Of a stretch of DNA of 64,000 nt, positions 7,669 to 62,228 are shown one piece after another; positions within the stretch are counted from its first letter, which is position 1, and every line of letters begins with the position of its first letter. The notes below the pieces were generated by a model, which worked only from the letters and a program-made list of their open reading frames with translations, made no database searches and was not told the origin of the DNA. A program made the position numbers and the translations under genes. The stretch comes from a virus. Location of the stretch: IMG/VR virus record IMGVR_UViG_3300033981_002454, positions 1-64,000 of that record. One strand, given 5' to 3'.

Positions 7669-8465
7669 CTGCAGCGCCTACCCCAGAGTGGCTCATGGAA
7701 ACCACCCCAGACGGGGAGGTTGCCCTTGCGCCCCTGCCTGTTCCGCCCAAATCAGAAAACCCCTTCAAGCTGTGGGTGATAGGACCTACAGGTGATATGC
7801 CGCAGCGGCGTATCTACCTTGCTCTTCACAACGATTACTCGGAAGTCCCTGTCTGGGATACCGATTTACCTGAGGACCGCTGCGGGGAAATTGTTGTCCG
7901 CCGTCTACTCAAGGGAGATCGCGGACATTACGGCCCCCTGGAGCACGCCCATCTATCGGTGTTACTCCAAGTGGATCACGACACGATGGTTCAACTAAGG
8001 ACGCATCGCATTGCCTCTTTCGATGTTCAGTCCAATCGATACACAGGGCAGCGCTTTATCGATGTCGCCACTGGTGCGCTCCCAGTTCAGGAGGCTTTCC
8101 ATTTCCGGCCCCCTGGCACCTACAGGGATCGCCAAGGGGACCCATATCTCTGGAGCGAGCATGACAACGCCAAGCTGGCCATCGTCTACCAGAACGCTTG
8201 CCACCAGTATCACGAACTTAGAAGGCAGGGGATATCAGAGGAGCATGCCAGGCAAGTTTTGCCGGGAGCCTTTCTCCAGAATGTTTTCCTGACCATGAAT
8301 GCTCGCATGTGGTTGCACCTGCTTGATGTGCGCCTCAAGCCAGATGCTCAGTACGAAATTCGCTGGGTTATGGAACTTCTAACTGGCTCCATTCGAAATT
8401 GGATTCCCGAGATTGCCAATTGGTACTCAGCTAACCGCCAGGGCAAAGCCCGGCTTGCCCCATGA
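7665..8465 (+). CDS. thyX: FAD-dependent thymidylate synthase ThyX
   Basis: 266 residues from ATG 7665 (ATGA overlap). The ThyX motif appears as RTHRIASFDVQSNRYTG near residues 112-128, the version used by cyanobacteria and their phages. AKLAIVYQNACHQYHEL and ARQVLPGAFLQNVFLTMNAR complete the flavin/dUMP site. The enzyme makes dTMP from dUMP with methylene-tetrahydrofolate and NAD(P)H. Length and motifs are normal, so it is probably active. The four genes after thyX follow in a coupled chain. Confidence 0.93.
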   Translation: MTAAPTPEWLMETTPDGEVALAPLPVPPKSENPFKLWVIGPTGDMPQRRIYLALHNDYSEVPVWDTDLPEDRCGEIVVRRLLKGDRGHYGPLEHAHLSVLLQVDHDTMVQLRTHRIASFDVQSNRYTGQRFIDVATGALPVQEAFHFRPPGTYRDRQGDPYLWSEHDNAKLAIVYQNACHQYHELRRQGISEEHARQVLPGAFLQNVFLTMNARMWLHLLDVRLKPDAQYEIRWVMELLTGSIRNWIPEIANWYSANRQGKARLAP

Positions 8466-8905
8466 AGAGACCCGATCGCGCCACCCTGCTCAAAAGCTTC
8501 TTCCAGGAACTTGGCGACACGCTCACGAAGGCCGATACAGAGGAGCAAATCGCCCTCAATACCAGGGCCTGTGAAGTGATCCTCGCGGACCACATCAAGC
8601 ACTTTGATCGGTTCTACGAAAAGCAAGGACCTGGCATCATGTGCATCAATTTGGCCAACAAGGGCTCAGCGGCCTACTACCTCACGATTGATGATTTTCA
8701 AGCTGACCTCAAAGTTGCCAAAAGCCTCGACCAGATCGACATTCATCAGATGCTCGAATCCCTGATCAAGGAGATCGAAGCTGCCAACTTCAAGGAGAAG
8801 GTCCTGCTCATGTTGATTGACAACAGCCAAAGCAGCTTGCTTCCTATCCCCCGGGATCACCCAGCCAAGGGAATCCAGGAGCTGCAGGAGAAGCTCACGG
8901 TATGA
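8462..8905 (+). CDS. Hypothetical helical protein
   Basis: 147 residues, ATG 8462 in an ATGA overlap with thyX. Mostly charged helices (LLKSFFQELGDTLTKADTEEQ, LIKEIEAANFKEKVLLMLID). No membrane segment and no family recognised. Stop overlaps the next start. Confidence 0.55.
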   Translation: MKRPDRATLLKSFFQELGDTLTKADTEEQIALNTRACEVILADHIKHFDRFYEKQGPGIMCINLANKGSAAYYLTIDDFQADLKVAKSLDQIDIHQMLESLIKEIEAANFKEKVLLMLIDNSQSSLLPIPRDHPAKGIQELQEKLTV

Positions 8906-9096
8906 GCTCCAAGATGTTTACAACGGAGTTTCAGGGCTACATCCTTATTCCCAAAGAGCTCTACGAAGCGATCCACGGCCTTTGCCATGGAAGCGATTGG
9001 AACCATGGCACGCATGCCCGAATTCATCGTCCGACGATTCGGCGCATCATGGGCGAACTGGATGGAACTCTTCCAGTGATGGATCCCCAGCCATGA
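8902..9096 (+). CDS. Small hypothetical protein
   Basis: 64 residues; ATG 8902 and the stop both lie in ATGA overlaps with their neighbours, which supports a real gene. It contains EFQGYILIPKELYEAIHGL, a short strand-helix motif, then a His-rich stretch. Function unknown. Confidence 0.55.
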   Translation: MSSKMFTTEFQGYILIPKELYEAIHGLCHGSDWNHGTHARIHRPTIRRIMGELDGTLPVMDPQP

Positions 9097-9722
9097 GTCA
9101 ACAGCCCCGGCGTGAGTTGATACCACCAAGGGCTGTTATTGAGATTGCTAGAAGCACCATGGGTGGGATCGATCTTGATCCCTACAGCACCGCGGAGGTG
9201 AACCATGTCGTCCAGGCCGCTCGCTATCTGGATCGATCGCCCCACATTGATATTGCAGCAGGGCGCCACTGGAGTCCATCGGGAAGCAAGCGTGTTTTCC
9301 TGGGAGTTCCCAGTGGGGTGCCCCTTGGTAAGGCCATGGCCAACAAGCTCCTGGAGGAATACCGAGCCGGCCACATCTGGGAAGCCATCCTCTGGCCCGG
9401 CTCCAACGAAGTGATCACACGATGTCCCTGGATCTGGGACTTTCCAGTTTGCTTCCCGTTCAGCAGGCTCGCTCCCCAGTTCTGGGATGACGAGCTAGAG
9501 GAGGCCGTTCGTGTACCGCCAGCGGACTGGTCCCCGATCGTCTACCTCCCTAGTGCGTTCCCTTCCACTGCATTCAATTCGTCCCTGGCCAGGTTCCATG
9601 CAGCAGCGTCACACCATGGGCGAGTTGTTCTCGATCAATGGAGCGGAGAAAGCCGCTGGAAGGATTCCTATCGCGCTTCTTTAAGGCGTGATTACGACGA
9701 CGCATTGCCTGAAGCGGAGTGA
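9093..9722 (+). CDS. Dam-type phage N6-adenine methylase-like protein without the catalytic DPPY/NPPY motif
   Basis: 209 residues from ATG 9093 (ATGA overlap). The SAM-site-like start IARSTMGGIDLDPYSTAEVN matches the phage Dam family (GgIDLDPAs...N), and HWSPSGSKRVFLG precedes the position where NPPYs is expected. Here that reads GVPSGVP. Later blocks (EAILWPGSNEV, CFPFSRLAPQFW) also follow the family. The lost motif suggests it no longer methylates adenine. Confidence 0.55.
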   Translation: MSQQPRRELIPPRAVIEIARSTMGGIDLDPYSTAEVNHVVQAARYLDRSPHIDIAAGRHWSPSGSKRVFLGVPSGVPLGKAMANKLLEEYRAGHIWEAILWPGSNEVITRCPWIWDFPVCFPFSRLAPQFWDDELEEAVRVPPADWSPIVYLPSAFPSTAFNSSLARFHAAASHHGRVVLDQWSGESRWKDSYRASLRRDYDDALPEAE

Positions 9723-54239: not shown

Positions 54240-54428
54240 GTGACTCTTCCCTCTAATCTCCACTTCGGCTACGACATCTGGTACGGGCCCGTCCTCTGCT
54301 CCAATACCCTCCACGCAGTGGATGAGGCCCTGGGCTATCAAGACAGCCCCCTCGATGTCCTGAGATCCCTAACCTTCATCCCTGTCGGCCTTGAGTATTC
54401 TCGATGGCCACAGCTCACCATCTCCTAG
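54240..54428 (+). CDS. Small orphan protein, right arm
   Basis: 62 residues from GTG 54240 (no SD). Contains FGYDIWYGPVLCSNTLHAVDEALGY and a hydrophobic-aromatic end. Stop TAG is embedded in the following GTGCCA hairpin. No family recognised. Confidence 0.5.
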   Translation: MTLPSNLHFGYDIWYGPVLCSNTLHAVDEALGYQDSPLDVLRSLTFIPVGLEYSRWPQLTIS

Positions 54429-54443
54429 TGCCACATCTGGCAC
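54428..54443 (+). promoter_or_regulatory. GTGCCA-CATC-TGGCAC stop-codon hairpin
   Basis: A perfect 6-bp dyad with a 4-base loop that begins on the last base of the TAG stop. The identical sequence recurs at 55199 and a variant with a compensating G-U pair at 55623. Confidence 0.65.
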
Positions 54444-54455
54444 CCCCTACCCTCG

Positions 54456-54487
54456 CCCCGCTTGGAGTCGTCCAAGTGGGGCTTTTT
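54456..54487 (+). terminator. Rho-independent terminator
   Basis: CCCCGCTTGGA-GTCG-TCCAAGTGGGG, 11 bp with one G-U, then CTTTTT. Confidence 0.9.
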
Positions 54488-54498
54488 CGCTGGACCTT

Positions 54499-54520
54499 CT
54501 CAGCAGTGGACACCACTGCT
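54499..54520 (+). promoter_or_regulatory. CAGCAG hairpin element, copy 3
   Basis: AGCAGTG-GACAC-CACTGCT, a 7-bp stem seven bases before ATG 54528 and 11 bases after the terminator T run; no SD is present. Confidence 0.7.
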
Positions 54521-54527
54521 TCGACTT

Positions 54528-54707: not shown

Positions 54708-54744
54708 GCCCCTGACTCCGCTCCGCGGGGATCGGGGGCTTTTT
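54708..54744 (+). terminator. Rho-independent terminator
   Basis: GCCCCTGA/TCGGGGGC stem with one G-U, then TTTTT. Confidence 0.8.
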
Positions 54745-54750
54745 CACTGA

Positions 54751-54773
54751 GTCCACTCAGCAGTGGACACCAC
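54751..54773 (+). promoter_or_regulatory. CAGCAG hairpin element, copy 4 (divergent)
   Basis: CTCAGCAG-TGGACACCAC keeps the consensus 5' arm and loop, but the 3' arm is CTTCTT. An alternative stem GTCCAC-TCAGCA-GTGGAC is perfect. ATG 54787 follows 14 bases later. Confidence 0.6.
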
Positions 54774-54786
54774 CTTCTTCGTTTCT

Positions 54787-55011: not shown

Positions 55012-55199
55012 GCATCAACCACGCCTGGATGGGCTCCGCGATCGAATGCATGCACATGCGTGCTATCGATAGCGATGGAGACTACCGATCCCATCCCGAC
55101 TACAACGCCGGATGGAATCTCTTCTCCTCCTCCTCCTTCATGCCCATAGGGGACATGCTCCTCTCCCCAGAGGAGGATGATCCCCGCTGGTACACCTAG
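55008..55199 (+). CDS. Small orphan protein, right arm
   Basis: 63 residues; ATG 55008 in ATGA overlap, stop TAG embedded in the next GTGCCA hairpin. No family recognised. Confidence 0.5.
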   Translation: MSINHAWMGSAIECMHMRAIDSDGDYRSHPDYNAGWNLFSSSSFMPIGDMLLSPEEDDPRWYT

Positions 55200-55214
55200 T
55201 GCCACATCTGGCAC
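55199..55214 (+). promoter_or_regulatory. GTGCCA-CATC-TGGCAC stop-codon hairpin, second copy
   Basis: Identical to 54428-54443, again starting on the last base of a TAG stop, followed by the same CCCCTACCC. Confidence 0.65.
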
Positions 55215-55225
55215 CCCCTACCCCT

Positions 55226-55260
55226 GCCCCATCCGGCTATCCCCCGGGTGGGGCTTTTTT
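55226..55260 (+). terminator. Rho-independent terminator
   Basis: GCCCCA-T-CCGG ... CCGG-G-TGGGGC stem then TTTTTT. Confidence 0.9.
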
Positions 55261-55270
55261 AGTGAGCCTT

Positions 55271-55290
55271 CTCAGCAGTGCCACCTGCTG
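55271..55290 (+). promoter_or_regulatory. CAGCAG hairpin element, copy 5
   Basis: CAGCAG-TGCCAC-CTGCTG with a shortened loop, ten bases after the terminator; start at 55340. Confidence 0.7.
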
Positions 55291-55339
55291 TCTACGGCTC
55301 ACATCCCTTCGCCCCGGTTAGCAACCGGGCTACCCCTCA

Positions 55340-55638: not shown

Positions 55639-55670
55639 CCCTCCCTTTGGTCCTATTCACTGAGCCAAAT

Positions 55671-55692
55671 CAGCAGTGCACACCGCCTGTTG
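55671..55692 (+). promoter_or_regulatory. CAGCAG hairpin element, copy 6
   Basis: CAGCAG-TGCACACCGC-CTGTTG (one G-U), 32 bases before ATG 55724. Confidence 0.7.
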
Positions 55693-55723
55693 TGCGGCTC
55701 AATACCCCTCACTGGAAATCCCC

Positions 55724-56472: not shown

Positions 56473-57189
56473 ATGACCACCCTCACCAAGAACACCGACC
56501 TCCTCAAACAGGAGGTCCACGAACACATCACGGCGGATGCCGTCGTCCAGGGTAATTACTGGTCAGACGGCAAAGGCTGCTTCATCGGGTGCCTGACTTA
56601 TTCAGGCGACCCCACTCCTGCTGTGGAGCGATTTGGGCTCACTGAGTCCATTCTTCGCATCGCGGAACGCATCTTTGAATCTCTTCCGCTTGAGGAAGCT
56701 AAGCAATTCTTCTTCGACTTTCCCGACGCCGTCGCTATGGACGGTAAAAACCTCTCCTTGATCCATTGGGTCTTCCTCGGTGAAACCCTAGGAAATCTCC
56801 CTCCTCAGCGGCCCGGAATCCAGGCCGTTATTGACCCAGTTATTCATGGCATGGATTTACTGGCTTCTGGCAACGTCTGGGGGACAGACGCCAGTGCCGC
56901 CGCCAGAGACGCCGCCTGGAACGCCGCCGGTGACGCCGCCTGGGCCGCCTCCTGTGCCGGCGCTAGGACCGGCTCCTGGGCCGCCTCCTGTGCCGCCTCC
57001 TGTGCCGGCGCTAGGACCGGCTCCTGGGCCGCCGCCATGGCCGCCGGTGACGCCGCCGGGGCCGCCTCCTGCGCCGCCAGGGACGCCGCCTGGAACGCCG
57101 CCGGTGACGCCAGTGACGCCGAAACTCGCCGGCAGCGGGACTCCCTGTTGTGGCTCATTCGAGAGGCGCCTGTTGTGACCCCTTCCTGA
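56473..57189 (+). CDS. Phage protein with Ala-rich tail (GxYWSDGKGCxxGC family)
   Basis: 238 residues. VVQGNYWSDGKGCFIGCLTYSG, ERFGLTESILRIAERIFESLP and VIDPVIHGMDLLASG follow a widespread phage/plasmid family of unknown function whose C-terminus is an Ala-rich repetitive helix. Here that is AARDAAWNAAGDAAWAAS with two 39-bp DNA repeats. LLWLIREAP closes the protein as in relatives. The product of 6901-7668 is a distant paralogue. Confidence 0.65.
   Translation: MTTLTKNTDLLKQEVHEHITADAVVQGNYWSDGKGCFIGCLTYSGDPTPAVERFGLTESILRIAERIFESLPLEEAKQFFFDFPDAVAMDGKNLSLIHWVFLGETLGNLPPQRPGIQAVIDPVIHGMDLLASGNVWGTDASAAARDAAWNAAGDAAWAASCAGARTGSWAASCAASCAGARTGSWAAAMAAGDAAGAASCAARDAAWNAAGDASDAETRRQRDSLLWLIREAPVVTPS
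56947..57033 (+). repeat. GC-rich 39-bp repeat, two copies offset by 48 bp
   Basis: GCCTCCTGTGCCGGCGCTAG and the following 19 bases occur at 56947 and 56995 within the Ala-rich coding tail. Confidence 0.75.
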
Positions 57190-57229: not shown

Positions 57230-57388
57230 ATGACAGCGCTATACACCCCTCGGCTGCTGCGCGGCGGCTCCTGGTTCAACTTCCCCAGGGACTGCCCCTC
57301 GGCCCATCGCTACCGCGCCCTGCCTGCTGATACCAGCGGCATCATCGGTTTCCGTGTGGTGTACCTCCCCCGGGAGGTAACACCATGA
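57230..57388 (+). CDS. FGE C-terminal segment cassette 1 (mini-ORF)
   Basis: 52 residues. RGGSWFNFPRDCPSAHRYR...IIGFRVVYLP is the C-terminal end of the formylglycine-generating-enzyme/sulfatase-modifying fold (a C-type-lectin fold), without the rest of the domain. The 3' end carries GGGAGGT eight bases before the next ATG, whose ATGA overlaps this stop. It aligns without gaps to cassette 2. Confidence 0.65.
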   Translation: MTALYTPRLLRGGSWFNFPRDCPSAHRYRALPADTSGIIGFRVVYLPREVTP

Positions 57389-57543
57389 CAACCCTTGACG
57401 CTTCTCGGCTACTGCGCGGGGGCTCCTGGATCTTTTATCCCGGGAGCTACGACTCGGCCTTCCGCTACCCCTTCCGGTGCGGCGGTGCCTTCAGTTTCAT
57501 CGGTTTCCGCGTGGTGTACCTCCCCCAGGAGGTAGCGCCATGA
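57385..57543 (+). CDS. FGE C-terminal segment cassette 2 (mini-ORF)
   Basis: 52 residues, same length and start (MTxLxxxRLLRGGSW) as cassette 1. The segment between W15 and G40 is almost entirely different (IFYPGSYDSAFRYPFRCGG), while the flanks are nearly identical. AGGAGGT sits before the next ATG, in an ATGA overlap. Confidence 0.65.
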   Translation: MTTLDASRLLRGGSWIFYPGSYDSAFRYPFRCGGAFSFIGFRVVYLPQEVAP

Positions 57544-58244
57544 CAGCCCCCGCAGTGCGCGGCGGCTCCTGGGTCAACGGACCGCTTGACTGCCGCGCCG
57601 CCTACCGGGGCAGCAGCGACCCGGCCTTCGTCAACTCCGACCTCGGCGTTCGCCCCTGCCGCCTCCTCCATCCATCTTCCATTTCTTCAGAGACCATGAC
57701 TACCTCCAATCACAGCATCTCCGCTTCCGCCCTCAACCTGCCGATGGTTTCCATCGCTCCAGGGCGCTTCATGATGGGATCCGATTCACCCTCCGCTTTC
57801 TCTGATGAGAAGCCGGTCCATGAGGTGATCATCGACAAAGGCTTTGAGATGGCGGAAGCTCCGACCACTCAAGCCCAGTGGCGATGGGTCGCCGAGAACC
57901 TGCCCAAGGTCGAGCGCGATCTCAATCCCGATCCCTCACGCTTCAAGGGCGATGATCGCCCCGTCGAATGCGTCTCCTGGTATGACGCCATGGAATTCTG
58001 TGCCCGCCTCAGTCAGGCCACAGGTAAGACCTACACCCTCCCTACCGAGGAGCAGTGGGAATACGCCTGCCGCGCAGGCACCACCACTGAATTCGCTTTC
58101 GGTGACACCCTCGATGAGTCCCAGGCACGCTTCAACGCAGATTCCACCTGCGATGTCAAGCAGTACCAACCCAACGCCTGGGGCCTCTACGACATGCATG
58201 GCCAGGTCTTCGAGTGGTGCCGCAACGAATACAAGCCCTATTGA
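57540..58244 (+). CDS. Cassette 3 fused in frame to a truncated FGE-sulfatase core
   Basis: 234 residues from ATG 57540 or 182 from ATG 57696. Residues 6-39 are a third C-terminal segment (VRGGSWVNGPLDCRAAYRG...) whose GFR end is altered to GVRP. From 57696 the normal N-terminal FGE core follows: PMVSIAPGRFMMGS, PVECVSWYDAMEFCARLS, YTLPTEEQWEYACRAGT, NAWGLYDMHGQVFEWC. It stops at CRNEYKPY, precisely before the point where relatives continue into RVLRGGSW...GFR. The order of parts is thus circularly permuted or the core is truncated. It may serve as a binding scaffold rather than an enzyme. Confidence 0.75.
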   Translation: MTAPAVRGGSWVNGPLDCRAAYRGSSDPAFVNSDLGVRPCRLLHPSSISSETMTTSNHSISASALNLPMVSIAPGRFMMGSDSPSAFSDEKPVHEVIIDKGFEMAEAPTTQAQWRWVAENLPKVERDLNPDPSRFKGDDRPVECVSWYDAMEFCARLSQATGKTYTLPTEEQWEYACRAGTTTEFAFGDTLDESQARFNADSTCDVKQYQPNAWGLYDMHGQVFEWCRNEYKPY

Positions 58245-58254
58245 TTCCCTGCCC

Positions 58255-58659
58255 ATGCATTCCGATCTGATTGGGGGCCGGCTTCGACATTTCATGCATC
58301 AAGCCGCCCCCTTTTTCTGCATTGCTATTGCCCTGCTCTGGCATCTTGTCGATGCCTCCTACGCCGCCGGCAGCCAGCTGCGTCTTGCCCTGGAAGAGCG
58401 CAGCCAGCAGCTAGCAGCCCTCCATCTCCACCTCCTCGGCCTCACTCCCCCTGAACCCCAATCCATCCCTCCTATGACCCTCTCTGTGCCCACTGCGGAA
58501 GACCCGGAGCTGACAGCCTTCCGCTGCGCTCTCAATGGAATCGACCTCAGCCTCAATGTGTCCCAGCTGCGTGCCCTGGCTCGCGAGCGGGGGCACCGCG
58601 GCAACAAGGTCTCCCGAGCTCGCCGCTCTGACCTGCTCCTCCTGCTGAGCAGGTCATGA
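58255..58659 (+). CDS. Membrane-anchored protein with SAP-like C-terminus
   Basis: 134 residues from ATG 58255. Membrane segment PFFCIAIALLWHLVDASYAA, coiled part (RLALEERSQQLAALHLHLL), and LNVSQLRALARERG...RRSDLLLLL resembling SAP/Rho-N DNA-binding helices. A second start at 58474 could give the SAP part alone. Stop overlaps the next cassette gene (ATGA). Confidence 0.5.
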   Translation: MHSDLIGGRLRHFMHQAAPFFCIAIALLWHLVDASYAAGSQLRLALEERSQQLAALHLHLLGLTPPEPQSIPPMTLSVPTAEDPELTAFRCALNGIDLSLNVSQLRALARERGHRGNKVSRARRSDLLLLLSRS

Positions 58660-59108
58660 CGTATCAAGTGCAACGCGGCGGTACTTGGTTTTTCAGGACG
58701 GAACAACAGGCGTATTTACGCTTGTCCTACCGACGCGCCGCTCCGCACTACCAAGACGATCTCGTCGGTTTCCGCGTGGTGTGCCTCCCTCGGGAGGTGG
58801 CACCACCTCGGATGCTACCGCCACTGCGCGGTGGCTCCTGGGGCAACAACCCCGGGTTCTGCCGCTCGGCCTGCCGCGGCTTCGGACGCTTCCAGCCCGG
58901 CTATGCCAGCAGCGGCTTGGGCTTCCGCGTGGTGTGCCTCCCTCTGGGGGTCAAGCCCACGCAGGTAACCATGCGCGGCGGCTCCCACGCCCAGCTCAGC
59001 TACCCCTGGTGCCGCTCGACCTGTCGCGGCATTTCCCATTCGCCCGACTATGCCGACTACGACCTCGGCTTTCGTGTGATCTGTCTTCCGCGGGGGATGA
59101 CACCATGA
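58656..59108 (+). CDS. Triple FGE C-terminal segment protein (cassettes 4-6)
   Basis: 150 residues holding three successive segments: QRGGTWFFRTEQQAYLRLSY...GFRVVCLP, LRGGSWGNNPGFCRSACRG...GFRVVCLP and MRGGSHAQLSYPWCRSTCRG...GFRVICLP, joined by short linkers. Each has conserved RGG and GFRV ends and a divergent interior. No FGE core is attached. Its stop overlaps the next ATG. Confidence 0.65.
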   Translation: MTYQVQRGGTWFFRTEQQAYLRLSYRRAAPHYQDDLVGFRVVCLPREVAPPRMLPPLRGGSWGNNPGFCRSACRGFGRFQPGYASSGLGFRVVCLPLGVKPTQVTMRGGSHAQLSYPWCRSTCRGISHSPDYADYDLGFRVICLPRGMTP

Positions 59109-59536
59109 CGATCCCCAATCGGGCGTTACGCGGCGGTCCCTGGGACTTCTTCCTTAGGCATTGCCGCTCTGCCCATCGCTTTCCCGGAGAACCCGGCGAG
59201 CCAATCGACAACATCGGTTTCCGCGTGGTGTGCGTCCCTCCAGGGGCCTCCACCGCACGCTGCGACTTGTCAATGCGCGGTGGCTCCTGGTTCAACTTCC
59301 CCAGGAACTGCCGCTCGGTCTACCGCTACCGCGACCAGCCCGGCTATGCCAACGACGTCATCGGGTTTCGCGTGGTGTGCCTCCCCCAGGAAGAAGCACC
59401 ATGCCGGGCGGTATTGCGCGGCGGCGGCTGGGACAGTCTCCCCTCAGACCGCCGCTTGGCTCACCGCGGCATTGACCTGCCCGGCTATACCGACGACTAC
59501 ATCGGCTTTCGTGTGATCTGTCTTCCGCCCTCCTGA
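59105..59536 (+). CDS. Triple FGE C-terminal segment protein (cassettes 7-9)
   Basis: 143 residues: LRGGPWDFFLRHCRSAHRF...GFRVVCVP, MRGGSWFNFPRNCRSVYRYR...GFRVVCLP, LRGGGWDSLPSDRRLAHRG...GFRVICLP. The middle unit is closest to cassette 1 (SWFNFPR shared). Same architecture as the preceding gene, so the two probably arose by duplication of a three-unit block. Confidence 0.65.
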   Translation: MTIPNRALRGGPWDFFLRHCRSAHRFPGEPGEPIDNIGFRVVCVPPGASTARCDLSMRGGSWFNFPRNCRSVYRYRDQPGYANDVIGFRVVCLPQEEAPCRAVLRGGGWDSLPSDRRLAHRGIDLPGYTDDYIGFRVICLPPS

Positions 59537-61378: not shown

Positions 61379-61439
61379 TGCTTCAATGACCGCCACGTCG
61401 GGCATACCGCCAGACACTCCATCCTTCCATCTCACTCCT

Positions 61440-62228
61440 ATGACCGTCGCTCCACCACCCAAGCCCACCACCTTTGAGCCCATTGTTCAGGCCAATGGCA
61501 GATCCCTCTTCCATCTGGCCATGGAGGCCCAGGAGATTGACGGCGAGCTTGCGATTGCCGTCGCCCAGCTCTCCTCTGAGGACCCCGAAGAGGTAGCTAC
61601 TGCAGAAGAGCTCATCTCCTCTATCCTCCAACGCGCCAATACCAGCCAGCAGTCATTGCTGGACAAGGTCAATCAAATGGCCTTTGTTGTTAAGTCACTG
61701 GAGAACCGTGCTGATTACTTCAAGCAGCAGGTCGAGACCTACAAGGAGAAGAGCAATCGCGACCAGGCCGATTCCGATCGCTTGCTCCGCTACCTGGTTC
61801 GAACCTTGGCGGCCCTCCACCCTGGCAAGAAGGAATTCCATCTTTCGGATTACGACCTCTGCTCACGTCAGAGTGACTCCACCGAGATCCTGGATGACCA
61901 GCAGGTCCCGCCGGATTTGTGCCGGCACGAAATCATCATCCAAGTCCCTGCTGGCAAGGGTGATTTAGGCCCCATGCTTCACAAGGAAATCAGTGATTTC
62001 ATTGCTGAGCTCATCACTGGTGTGTCGGGAGGTGATTATCTCTTGCCAACCCTTAATTCCTATCCAATCAAGAATCTTGTCAAGGAACGCATCAAGCAAA
62101 ATCCAGCCCCCGAAGAAGTCCGCTCCCTCTCAGCGGCTTACGGCCCAGCAACGCATGCGGTCGTCCTGAGATCAGACGCAGTCCCTGGCGCTGAGGTCGT
62201 TCGCAAGAAGACCTGGTCCATCAAGTGA
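61440..62228 (+). CDS. Gp157-like phage protein (Sipho_Gp157 family)
   Basis: 262 residues from ATG 61440; ATG 61386 is possible. LFHLAMEAQEIDGELAIAV, NQMAFVVKSLENRADYFKQQ, then SNRDQADSDRLLRYLVRTL follow the coiled-coil layout of phage Gp157 proteins, commonly encoded with SSB and recombination genes. A C-terminal region (residues about 130-262) with HEIIIQVPAGKG and NLVKERIKQNP is extra compared with short relatives. Role in recombination or phage resistance is only suggested for the family. Confidence 0.65.
   Translation: MTVAPPPKPTTFEPIVQANGRSLFHLAMEAQEIDGELAIAVAQLSSEDPEEVATAEELISSILQRANTSQQSLLDKVNQMAFVVKSLENRADYFKQQVETYKEKSNRDQADSDRLLRYLVRTLAALHPGKKEFHLSDYDLCSRQSDSTEILDDQQVPPDLCRHEIIIQVPAGKGDLGPMLHKEISDFIAELITGVSGGDYLLPTLNSYPIKNLVKERIKQNPAPEEVRSLSAAYGPATHAVVLRSDAVPGAEVVRKKTWSIK

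Follow-up and report, generated by a model that had tools for sequence, protein, structure and literature searches.

Organization of the tip array

The window analysed in this work is a stretch of 64,000 bases that comprises bases 1-64000 of an 87,101-base virus record. The large terminase of this phage is nearest to its counterpart in Synechococcus phage S-EIV1 (47.6% identity), and PHROGs matches were obtained for tail, head, terminase, primase-helicase and nucleotide genes. An earlier note, made from the sequence alone, had described nine tip segments of FGE/C-type-lectin kind. A profile built from these segments bore out the count: exactly nine cassettes were detected in the window (57260-59518), with scores of 51-69 bits, and a motif scan of the other 23 kb of the record found no further cassette. 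All nine lie on the same strand, within open, coupled ORFs.

The genes of the locus, all on the plus strand, are arranged as two mini-ORFs, a cassette-core fusion, an unrelated ORF and two three-cassette ORFs. Mini-ORF 1 (57230..57388, 52 aa) carries cassette 1 at 57260-57361, and mini-ORF 2 (57385..57543, 52 aa) carries cassette 2 at 57415-57516; both were recognized by the profile and by Pfam. In the fusion ORF (57540..58244, 234 aa), cassette 3 (57558-57659) stands in frame before an FGE/C-type-lectin scaffold core (57696..58244) that was assigned by Pfam, PHROG 18508 and Foldseek and has no C-terminal tip of its own. An ORF of 134 aa (58255..58659), family unassigned, separates the core from the right array. 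It retains an MHSDL start; in a closely related genome that lacks this ORF (L003), MHSDL opens a tip ORF. The right array consists of three-tip ORF A (58656..59108), with cassettes 4-6 at 58674, 58827 and 58974, and three-tip ORF B (59105..59536), with cassettes 7-9 at 59129, 59276 and 59417. Thus, one of the nine cassettes is fused ahead of the core; the remaining eight are detached and lie in ORFs linked through ATGA overlaps. The motifs of cassettes 4 and 6 are eroded, and the fused tip ends in GVRPC/GIRPC, unlike the GFRVV of the other cassettes.

Two details of the earlier description had to be amended. The core (57696-58244) had been taken to be without a tip; position 57696 is an internal ATG, and the true ORF begins at 57540 and includes cassette 3 at its N-terminus. 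The core had also been said to end exactly where a tip normally begins. On the 255-position Pfam FGE-sulfatase profile, the core matches positions 5-194 (138 bits) and the segments match positions 214-254; hence, a C-terminal tip is indeed absent, but the stop lies some 20 profile positions ahead of the normal tip start, and the YEGAPxDGSAW stretch is missing.

Start and stop codons overlap as ATGA at 57385, 57540, 58656 and 59105, and two of these overlapping starts have strong Shine-Dalgarno sites: GGGAGGT for mini-ORF 2, inside the flank of cassette 1, and AGGAGGT for the fusion ORF. The site that serves the next ORF is located in the conserved 3' flank of the preceding cassette (GGGAGGTAACACC-ATG, AGGAGGTAGCGCC-ATG). 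No Shine-Dalgarno-like sequence was found upstream of mini-ORF 1. The proposal that the tips also exist as free mini-proteins is upheld as far as their expression is concerned, which appears likely given these sites and the ATGA coupling. The degenerate 23-nt 3' flank has six exact matches, compared with none expected in shuffled sequences, and chance is therefore excluded as the cause of the cassette repetition.

The ORF immediately 5' of the array (56473-57189) contains Ala-rich AARDAAW/CAGARTGSW repeats. Further upstream, repeats of about 50-100 nt are dispersed among small ORFs (window 54425-54523, 54735-54781, 55196-55312 and 55658-55709) and are common to two close relatives, L001 and L002. 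The phage also encodes a Mu Gam-like end-protection protein and an exonuclease (window 61386-62228; L083:5518-6270, genome 80518-81270), which are possible parts of a phage recombination system. A search of the phage's own genome for the phrog_26464 recombinase family gave no match, and the control in that search was likewise silent.

Ancestry of the tips

The cellular relatives of the tips are cyanobacterial. A diversity-generating retroelement (DGR) with such a tip is present in Cyanobium sp. FGCU6 and in Synechococcus sp. Tobar12-5m-g, and a DGR with a cassette-like template was detected in 2 of the 251 genomes of the family of Cyanobium FGCU6. In the FGCU6 and Tobar12-5m-g elements, the reverse transcriptase (RT) ORF is 377-378 aa long and has a YVDD motif, and the template repeat (TR) lies about 30 nt 3' of it (L097, FGCU6: RT ORF 8071-9201, TR 9230). 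Translated, the template has (N/K)CRSA(H/Y)RNHN(Q/E) at its centre, with 10 residues before and 14 after.

When nine ungapped cassettes of the window lineage were compared with the FGCU6 template, adenines were found changed at 139 of 225 positions and other bases at 99 of 720 (odds ratio 10, p 3e-43). With all 17 sampled cassettes, gapped ones included, the counts were 270/425 for adenines and 265/1330 for other bases. At template AAY codons, positions 1, 2 and 3 were changed in 72, 49 and 10% of cases, and 88 of 90 such codons end in C or T in the cassettes, against a background of 57.5% (p 6e-19), in agreement with the NNY codons remarked upon earlier. In constant codons, most of the change falls on the third base (25% vs 14%), a bias of the kind seen under purifying selection on the protein. 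Taken together, adenine-biased change, C/T codon ends and third-base bias mark the tips, at the level of sequence, as descendants of DGR variable regions that have been kept as protein. The DGR descent proposed in the earlier note thus stands against real host templates.

No RVT_1 match was found in the 87-kb record nor in 66 other virus records (65 with an FGE core plus L091, with a template-like cassette), some of which may be incomplete; a scan for adenine-rich, TR-like sequence across the whole record, window included, found no template. The absence of RT and template in cis, already noticed in the window, therefore extends to the entire record, and a live DGR in cis was rejected on this basis. 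Nor does the variable region occupy the 3' end of the C-type lectin gene: cassette 3 precedes the core and the other eight cassettes are in separate ORFs.

A pattern search for near-pristine templates in viral contigs gave a single match, on the RT-less L091. There, a small ORF contains a cassette (L091:393-480, 34 residues) nearly identical to the DGR template; it adjoins a second cassette, and RVT_1 is absent from its contig.

Changes among near-identical phages

Four close genomes, the window phage (W), L001, L002 and L003, have core proteins that are 93-98% identical. All four retain the cassette 3-core fusion, and the reading frame is preserved across one 9-nt indel. A sequencing frameshift, which the earlier note had named as a trivial reason for the end of the core, was rejected: the four genomes keep the same stop together with the upstream fusion, and the array layout is repeated in two other phages (L057 and L059).

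Comparison of these genomes revealed block replacements with sharp borders. Between W and L001, the right array shows no difference in 881 bases, the DNA just downstream is 100% identical and the core 97.1%, and the left minis are unrelated. Between W and L002, the left minis (95.5%), the core (97.8%), the neighbouring ORF (97.5%) and the downstream DNA (98.0%) are conserved, and the right array has been replaced (77.7%, with 222 gap columns); in the left minis, a variable codon was altered just once, by a two-base change. W and L001/L002 have different versions of cassette 3, with 3-nt indels, and both flanks are kept. L002 also harbors a chimeric cassette with a piece in shifted frame, another cassette with an internal duplication, and a 1-nt indel that fuses the first two minis. 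Exact stretches of 20-24 nt are shared by cassettes at different array positions.

Judging from these comparisons, the array changes by replacing and duplicating whole cassettes and not by point mutagenesis. Adenine mutagenesis as the current source of the differences was rejected in view of the identical W and L001 arrays, the indels and the block replacement. Whole-cassette exchange, as the earlier note had anticipated, is thus seen between near-identical genomes. Its suggestion of ongoing feeding by a DGR appears unlikely at this time scale because the right arrays of W and L001 are identical. As for its suggestion that array cassettes could be swapped onto the core, W and L001/L002 do have different fused tips between kept flanks, but no array donor was identified, as no array cassette was found to match the fused tip over a variable stretch.

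An extra cassette copy was also observed in a separate pair of relatives, L017 and L020. These are 99.99% identical over 9.8 kb; one of them has an additional 127-bp copy, and the tip that follows is thereby put in another frame.

Recurrence of the layout, permutation and fold

Detached arrays of similar design were found in two distant phages. In L057, the core is followed by eight cassettes; ORFs overlap as ATGA/GTGA, and GGGAGG sites lie at 1026 and 1307. In L059, about 14 cassettes stand ahead of a cassette-core fusion, in short ORFs with mostly one cassette each, several of them ATGA-coupled. Permutation of cassette and core is also found in L004, L012, L014, L049, L051 and L059; in L012, L014, L049, L051 and L059 the fusion has no C-terminal tip. 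On the core tree, the permuted state requires at least 4-5 changes, a figure to be read with a weakly supported backbone that is also compatible with a single origin.

The core ORF of the window is, as indicated by its sequence, a circular permutation of tip and scaffold. Either permutation or completion in trans is geometrically plausible because the N- and C-terminal strands of the C-type lectin fold pair antiparallel (PMC6328139). In the structure prediction of core plus cassette, an approach proposed in the earlier note, the two parts behaved differently. AlphaFold recovered the FGE core of the fusion ORF (mean pLDDT 73.6), and Foldseek matched it to PvdO/FGE structures (5hha and 1y4j, E 1e-7), but cassette residues 1-31 had pLDDT <50 in both runs. 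The RGGSW...GFR strands of the core ORF are found in the N-terminal, permuted position only (cassette-only rows were left out of the fold alignment because MAFFT misplaced them).

In relatives L004, L005, L014 and L016, the surrounding genes have replication, recombination and nucleotide functions, and tail genes lie elsewhere. For this reason, a role at the tail tip is not favoured.

Candidate −1 frameshifting in relatives

In other relatives, a single core is followed by between two and six tips, the first of which is in the −1 frame. Sixteen distinct junctions of this kind were analyzed, in which the core is followed by a −1-frame tip and usually by a second tip in the 0 frame. GGGAAAG, AAAAAAG or GGGGGAG is present just upstream in 16/16 junctions and in none of 84 viral single-tip junctions. 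GGGGGAG was added to the site set post hoc, and the loci are related, so that p-values overstate independence. The strict X XXY YYZ form (GGGAAAG/AAAAAAG) is found in 10/16 junctions, compared with 0/84 viral and 2/94 cellular 0-frame junctions, and a Shine-Dalgarno-like element lies 7-12 nt upstream of the heptamer in 14/16 vs 0/178. Candidate −1 sites are located at L005 10555, L016 10555 and 11654, L019 10600, L022 10594, L017 10603, L023 9664, L008 2969 and L065 10570; candidate GGGGGAG sites are present in L011, L013, L018, L029, L072 and L203.

Both tips are intact, with NNC hypervariation each in its own frame; position entropies are 1.64/1.45/0.36 bits for the −1 tip and 1.80/1.61/0.32 bits for the 0 tip. 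Openness of the skipped frame is not evidence, as it is open in 72 of 84 single-tip viral cassettes too. Independent initiation of the −1 cassettes was considered and rejected: there is no conserved in-frame start between slippery site and tip. Compared with shuffled sequences, RNA structure downstream showed no consistent gain in strength. The −1-tip trait needs 5-6 changes on the core tree, only one of which is forced by well-supported branches.

The presence of slippery heptamers at all 16 junctions and of an SD-like stimulator at 14 points to programmed frameshifting as a putative tip selector in these relatives. In L004 (10552-11410), five tandem units of GGGAAAG, −1-frame tip and stop lie in one open zero frame and are followed by a further tip in the 0 frame; such an arrangement might possibly act as a graded tip selector. 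In the window lineage (W, L001-L003), the DNA downstream of the core yielded no slippery site. Among the papers searched, the one that mentioned both ribosomal frameshifting and DGRs was a phage-annotation review.

Interpretation of the array

The explanation that we consider probable is that, at this locus of an S-EIV1-like Synechococcus phage, binding tips of DGR origin are translated together from an array that surrounds a permuted lectin scaffold of FGE type. Homologous recombination in the conserved flanks would now redistribute existing variation, instead of new variation arising on site. Free tips would be real products that act with the scaffold; most likely, they would provide its absent C-terminal strand in trans or else exchange with the fused tip, and one operon would thus yield a set of alternative binding proteins. 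Docking of free tips onto the scaffold is the step that we infer. Given the replication and nucleotide context in relatives, an intracellular partner would be favoured over a tail fibre. Certain observations speak against this explanation: the fused tip may already fill the tip site of the core, in which case no partner for the free tips is obvious; AlphaFold gave the cassette residues low confidence in both runs; an SD is absent from mini-ORF 1; cassettes 4 and 6 are eroded; and the L002 chimera is as might be expected in a decaying array.

Other explanations deserve consideration. The free tips might work alone as small multivalent binders or decoys, for instance by titrating ligands or by blocking host FGE-type antigen sensors that cyanobacterial DGRs diversify. 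Three-tip ORFs without scaffold and the replication and nucleotide-metabolism neighbourhood of relatives, distinct from tail genes, agree with this idea, as does the description of proteins targeted by DGRs in multicellular bacteria as putative antigen sensors (PMC10907252). We nevertheless deem it unlikely, as a 35-residue C-type lectin segment would probably not fold without a scaffold. Somewhat less credit can be given to a donor store, expressed or partly so, from which recombination would convert the tip slot ahead of the core, as in antigenic variation based on silent cassettes. Block replacement of arrays, the change of the fused tip between kept flanks, the 20-24-nt stretches common to cassettes at different positions, and the phage-encoded exonuclease and Gam-like protein would all suit such a store; the lack of an array cassette that matches the fused tip over a variable stretch, the distinct end of that tip, and the SD sites and start codons of cassettes, in which they are unlike silent stores, do not.

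A decaying relic of tandemly duplicated DGR variable regions, now functionless, seems to us about as doubtful as the donor store. Eroded cassettes 4 and 6, the chimeric, frameshifted cassette of L002 and the lack of RT and template are what decay would leave; against it, every one of the nine cassettes lies within an open, coupled ORF, change at constant positions is biased towards synonymous substitutions, distant phages repeat the layout and the right array is without decay between W and L001. The least credible alternative, which we view as very improbable, is that a host DGR acts on the array in trans and continues to mutate it during infection. Host elements with a cassette-like template do exist (2/251 genomes), and variation is concentrated at template adenines. 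However, the right arrays of W and L001 are identical at 881/881 bases, the left minis of W and L002, 95.5% identical, show only one two-base change at a variable codon, and the 3-nt indels between arrays are not a product of adenine mutagenesis.

Beyond the co-translated array of the window, a more tentative generalization, about which we are inclined to doubt, is that cyanophages follow a principle of one scaffold and many tips, in which tips of host DGR origin have been uncoupled from the lectin scaffold and are delivered combinatorially in three modes. Free, co-translated tips would complete the scaffold in trans (window, L057, L059); circular permutation would place tips at the N-terminus (W, L012, L014, L049, L051); and programmed −1 frameshifting would pick among successive tips of one mRNA (L005, L016, L019 and others, and L004 with its five tandem slippery-site/tip units).

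Comparison with known systems

The closest known proteins are the FGE-type C-type lectin proteins of cyanobacterial DGRs (PMC7517822; FGCU6, Tobar12-5m-g), with which the array shares the fold of the scaffold, the RGGSW...CRSAxR...GFRVV region, adenine-derived NNY variation and a match to the template. In contrast with these proteins, the array has neither RT nor template, its segment is detached and present nine-fold, and one segment has been moved before the core instead of ending the gene. DGR-type variation of a lectin fold is likewise phage-borne in the tropism systems of BPP-1 (Mtd) and of crAss-like and Bacteroides phage DGRs; however, the array lacks an RT, a single C-terminal variable region and a tail-fibre context, and varies by cassette replacement.

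Arrays of alternative segments with conserved flanks are known from silent-cassette antigenic variation of the pilE/pilS and vlsE type. The phage array shares this design, but its cassettes carry SD sites and start codons, and none was found to match the fused tip over a variable stretch. Inverted cassettes and a site-specific recombinase characterize shufflons and other invertible cassette systems; in the phage array, all nine cassettes have one orientation. Programmed −1 frameshifting has precedents in dnaX and in lambda G-T. The relatives, not the window, resemble dnaX in having GGGAAAG/AAAAAAG in the zero frame with an SD-like element about 10 nt upstream; unlike dnaX and lambda G-T, they would choose between two or more diversified C-terminal tips. 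DGRs are known to diversify a single tip of each protein through mutation. In this phage family, tips appear to be retained and recombined as parts in their own right, and relatives appear to choose between them during translation. If true, this would be a new route to a repertoire of binding proteins that needs no mutating enzyme on site.
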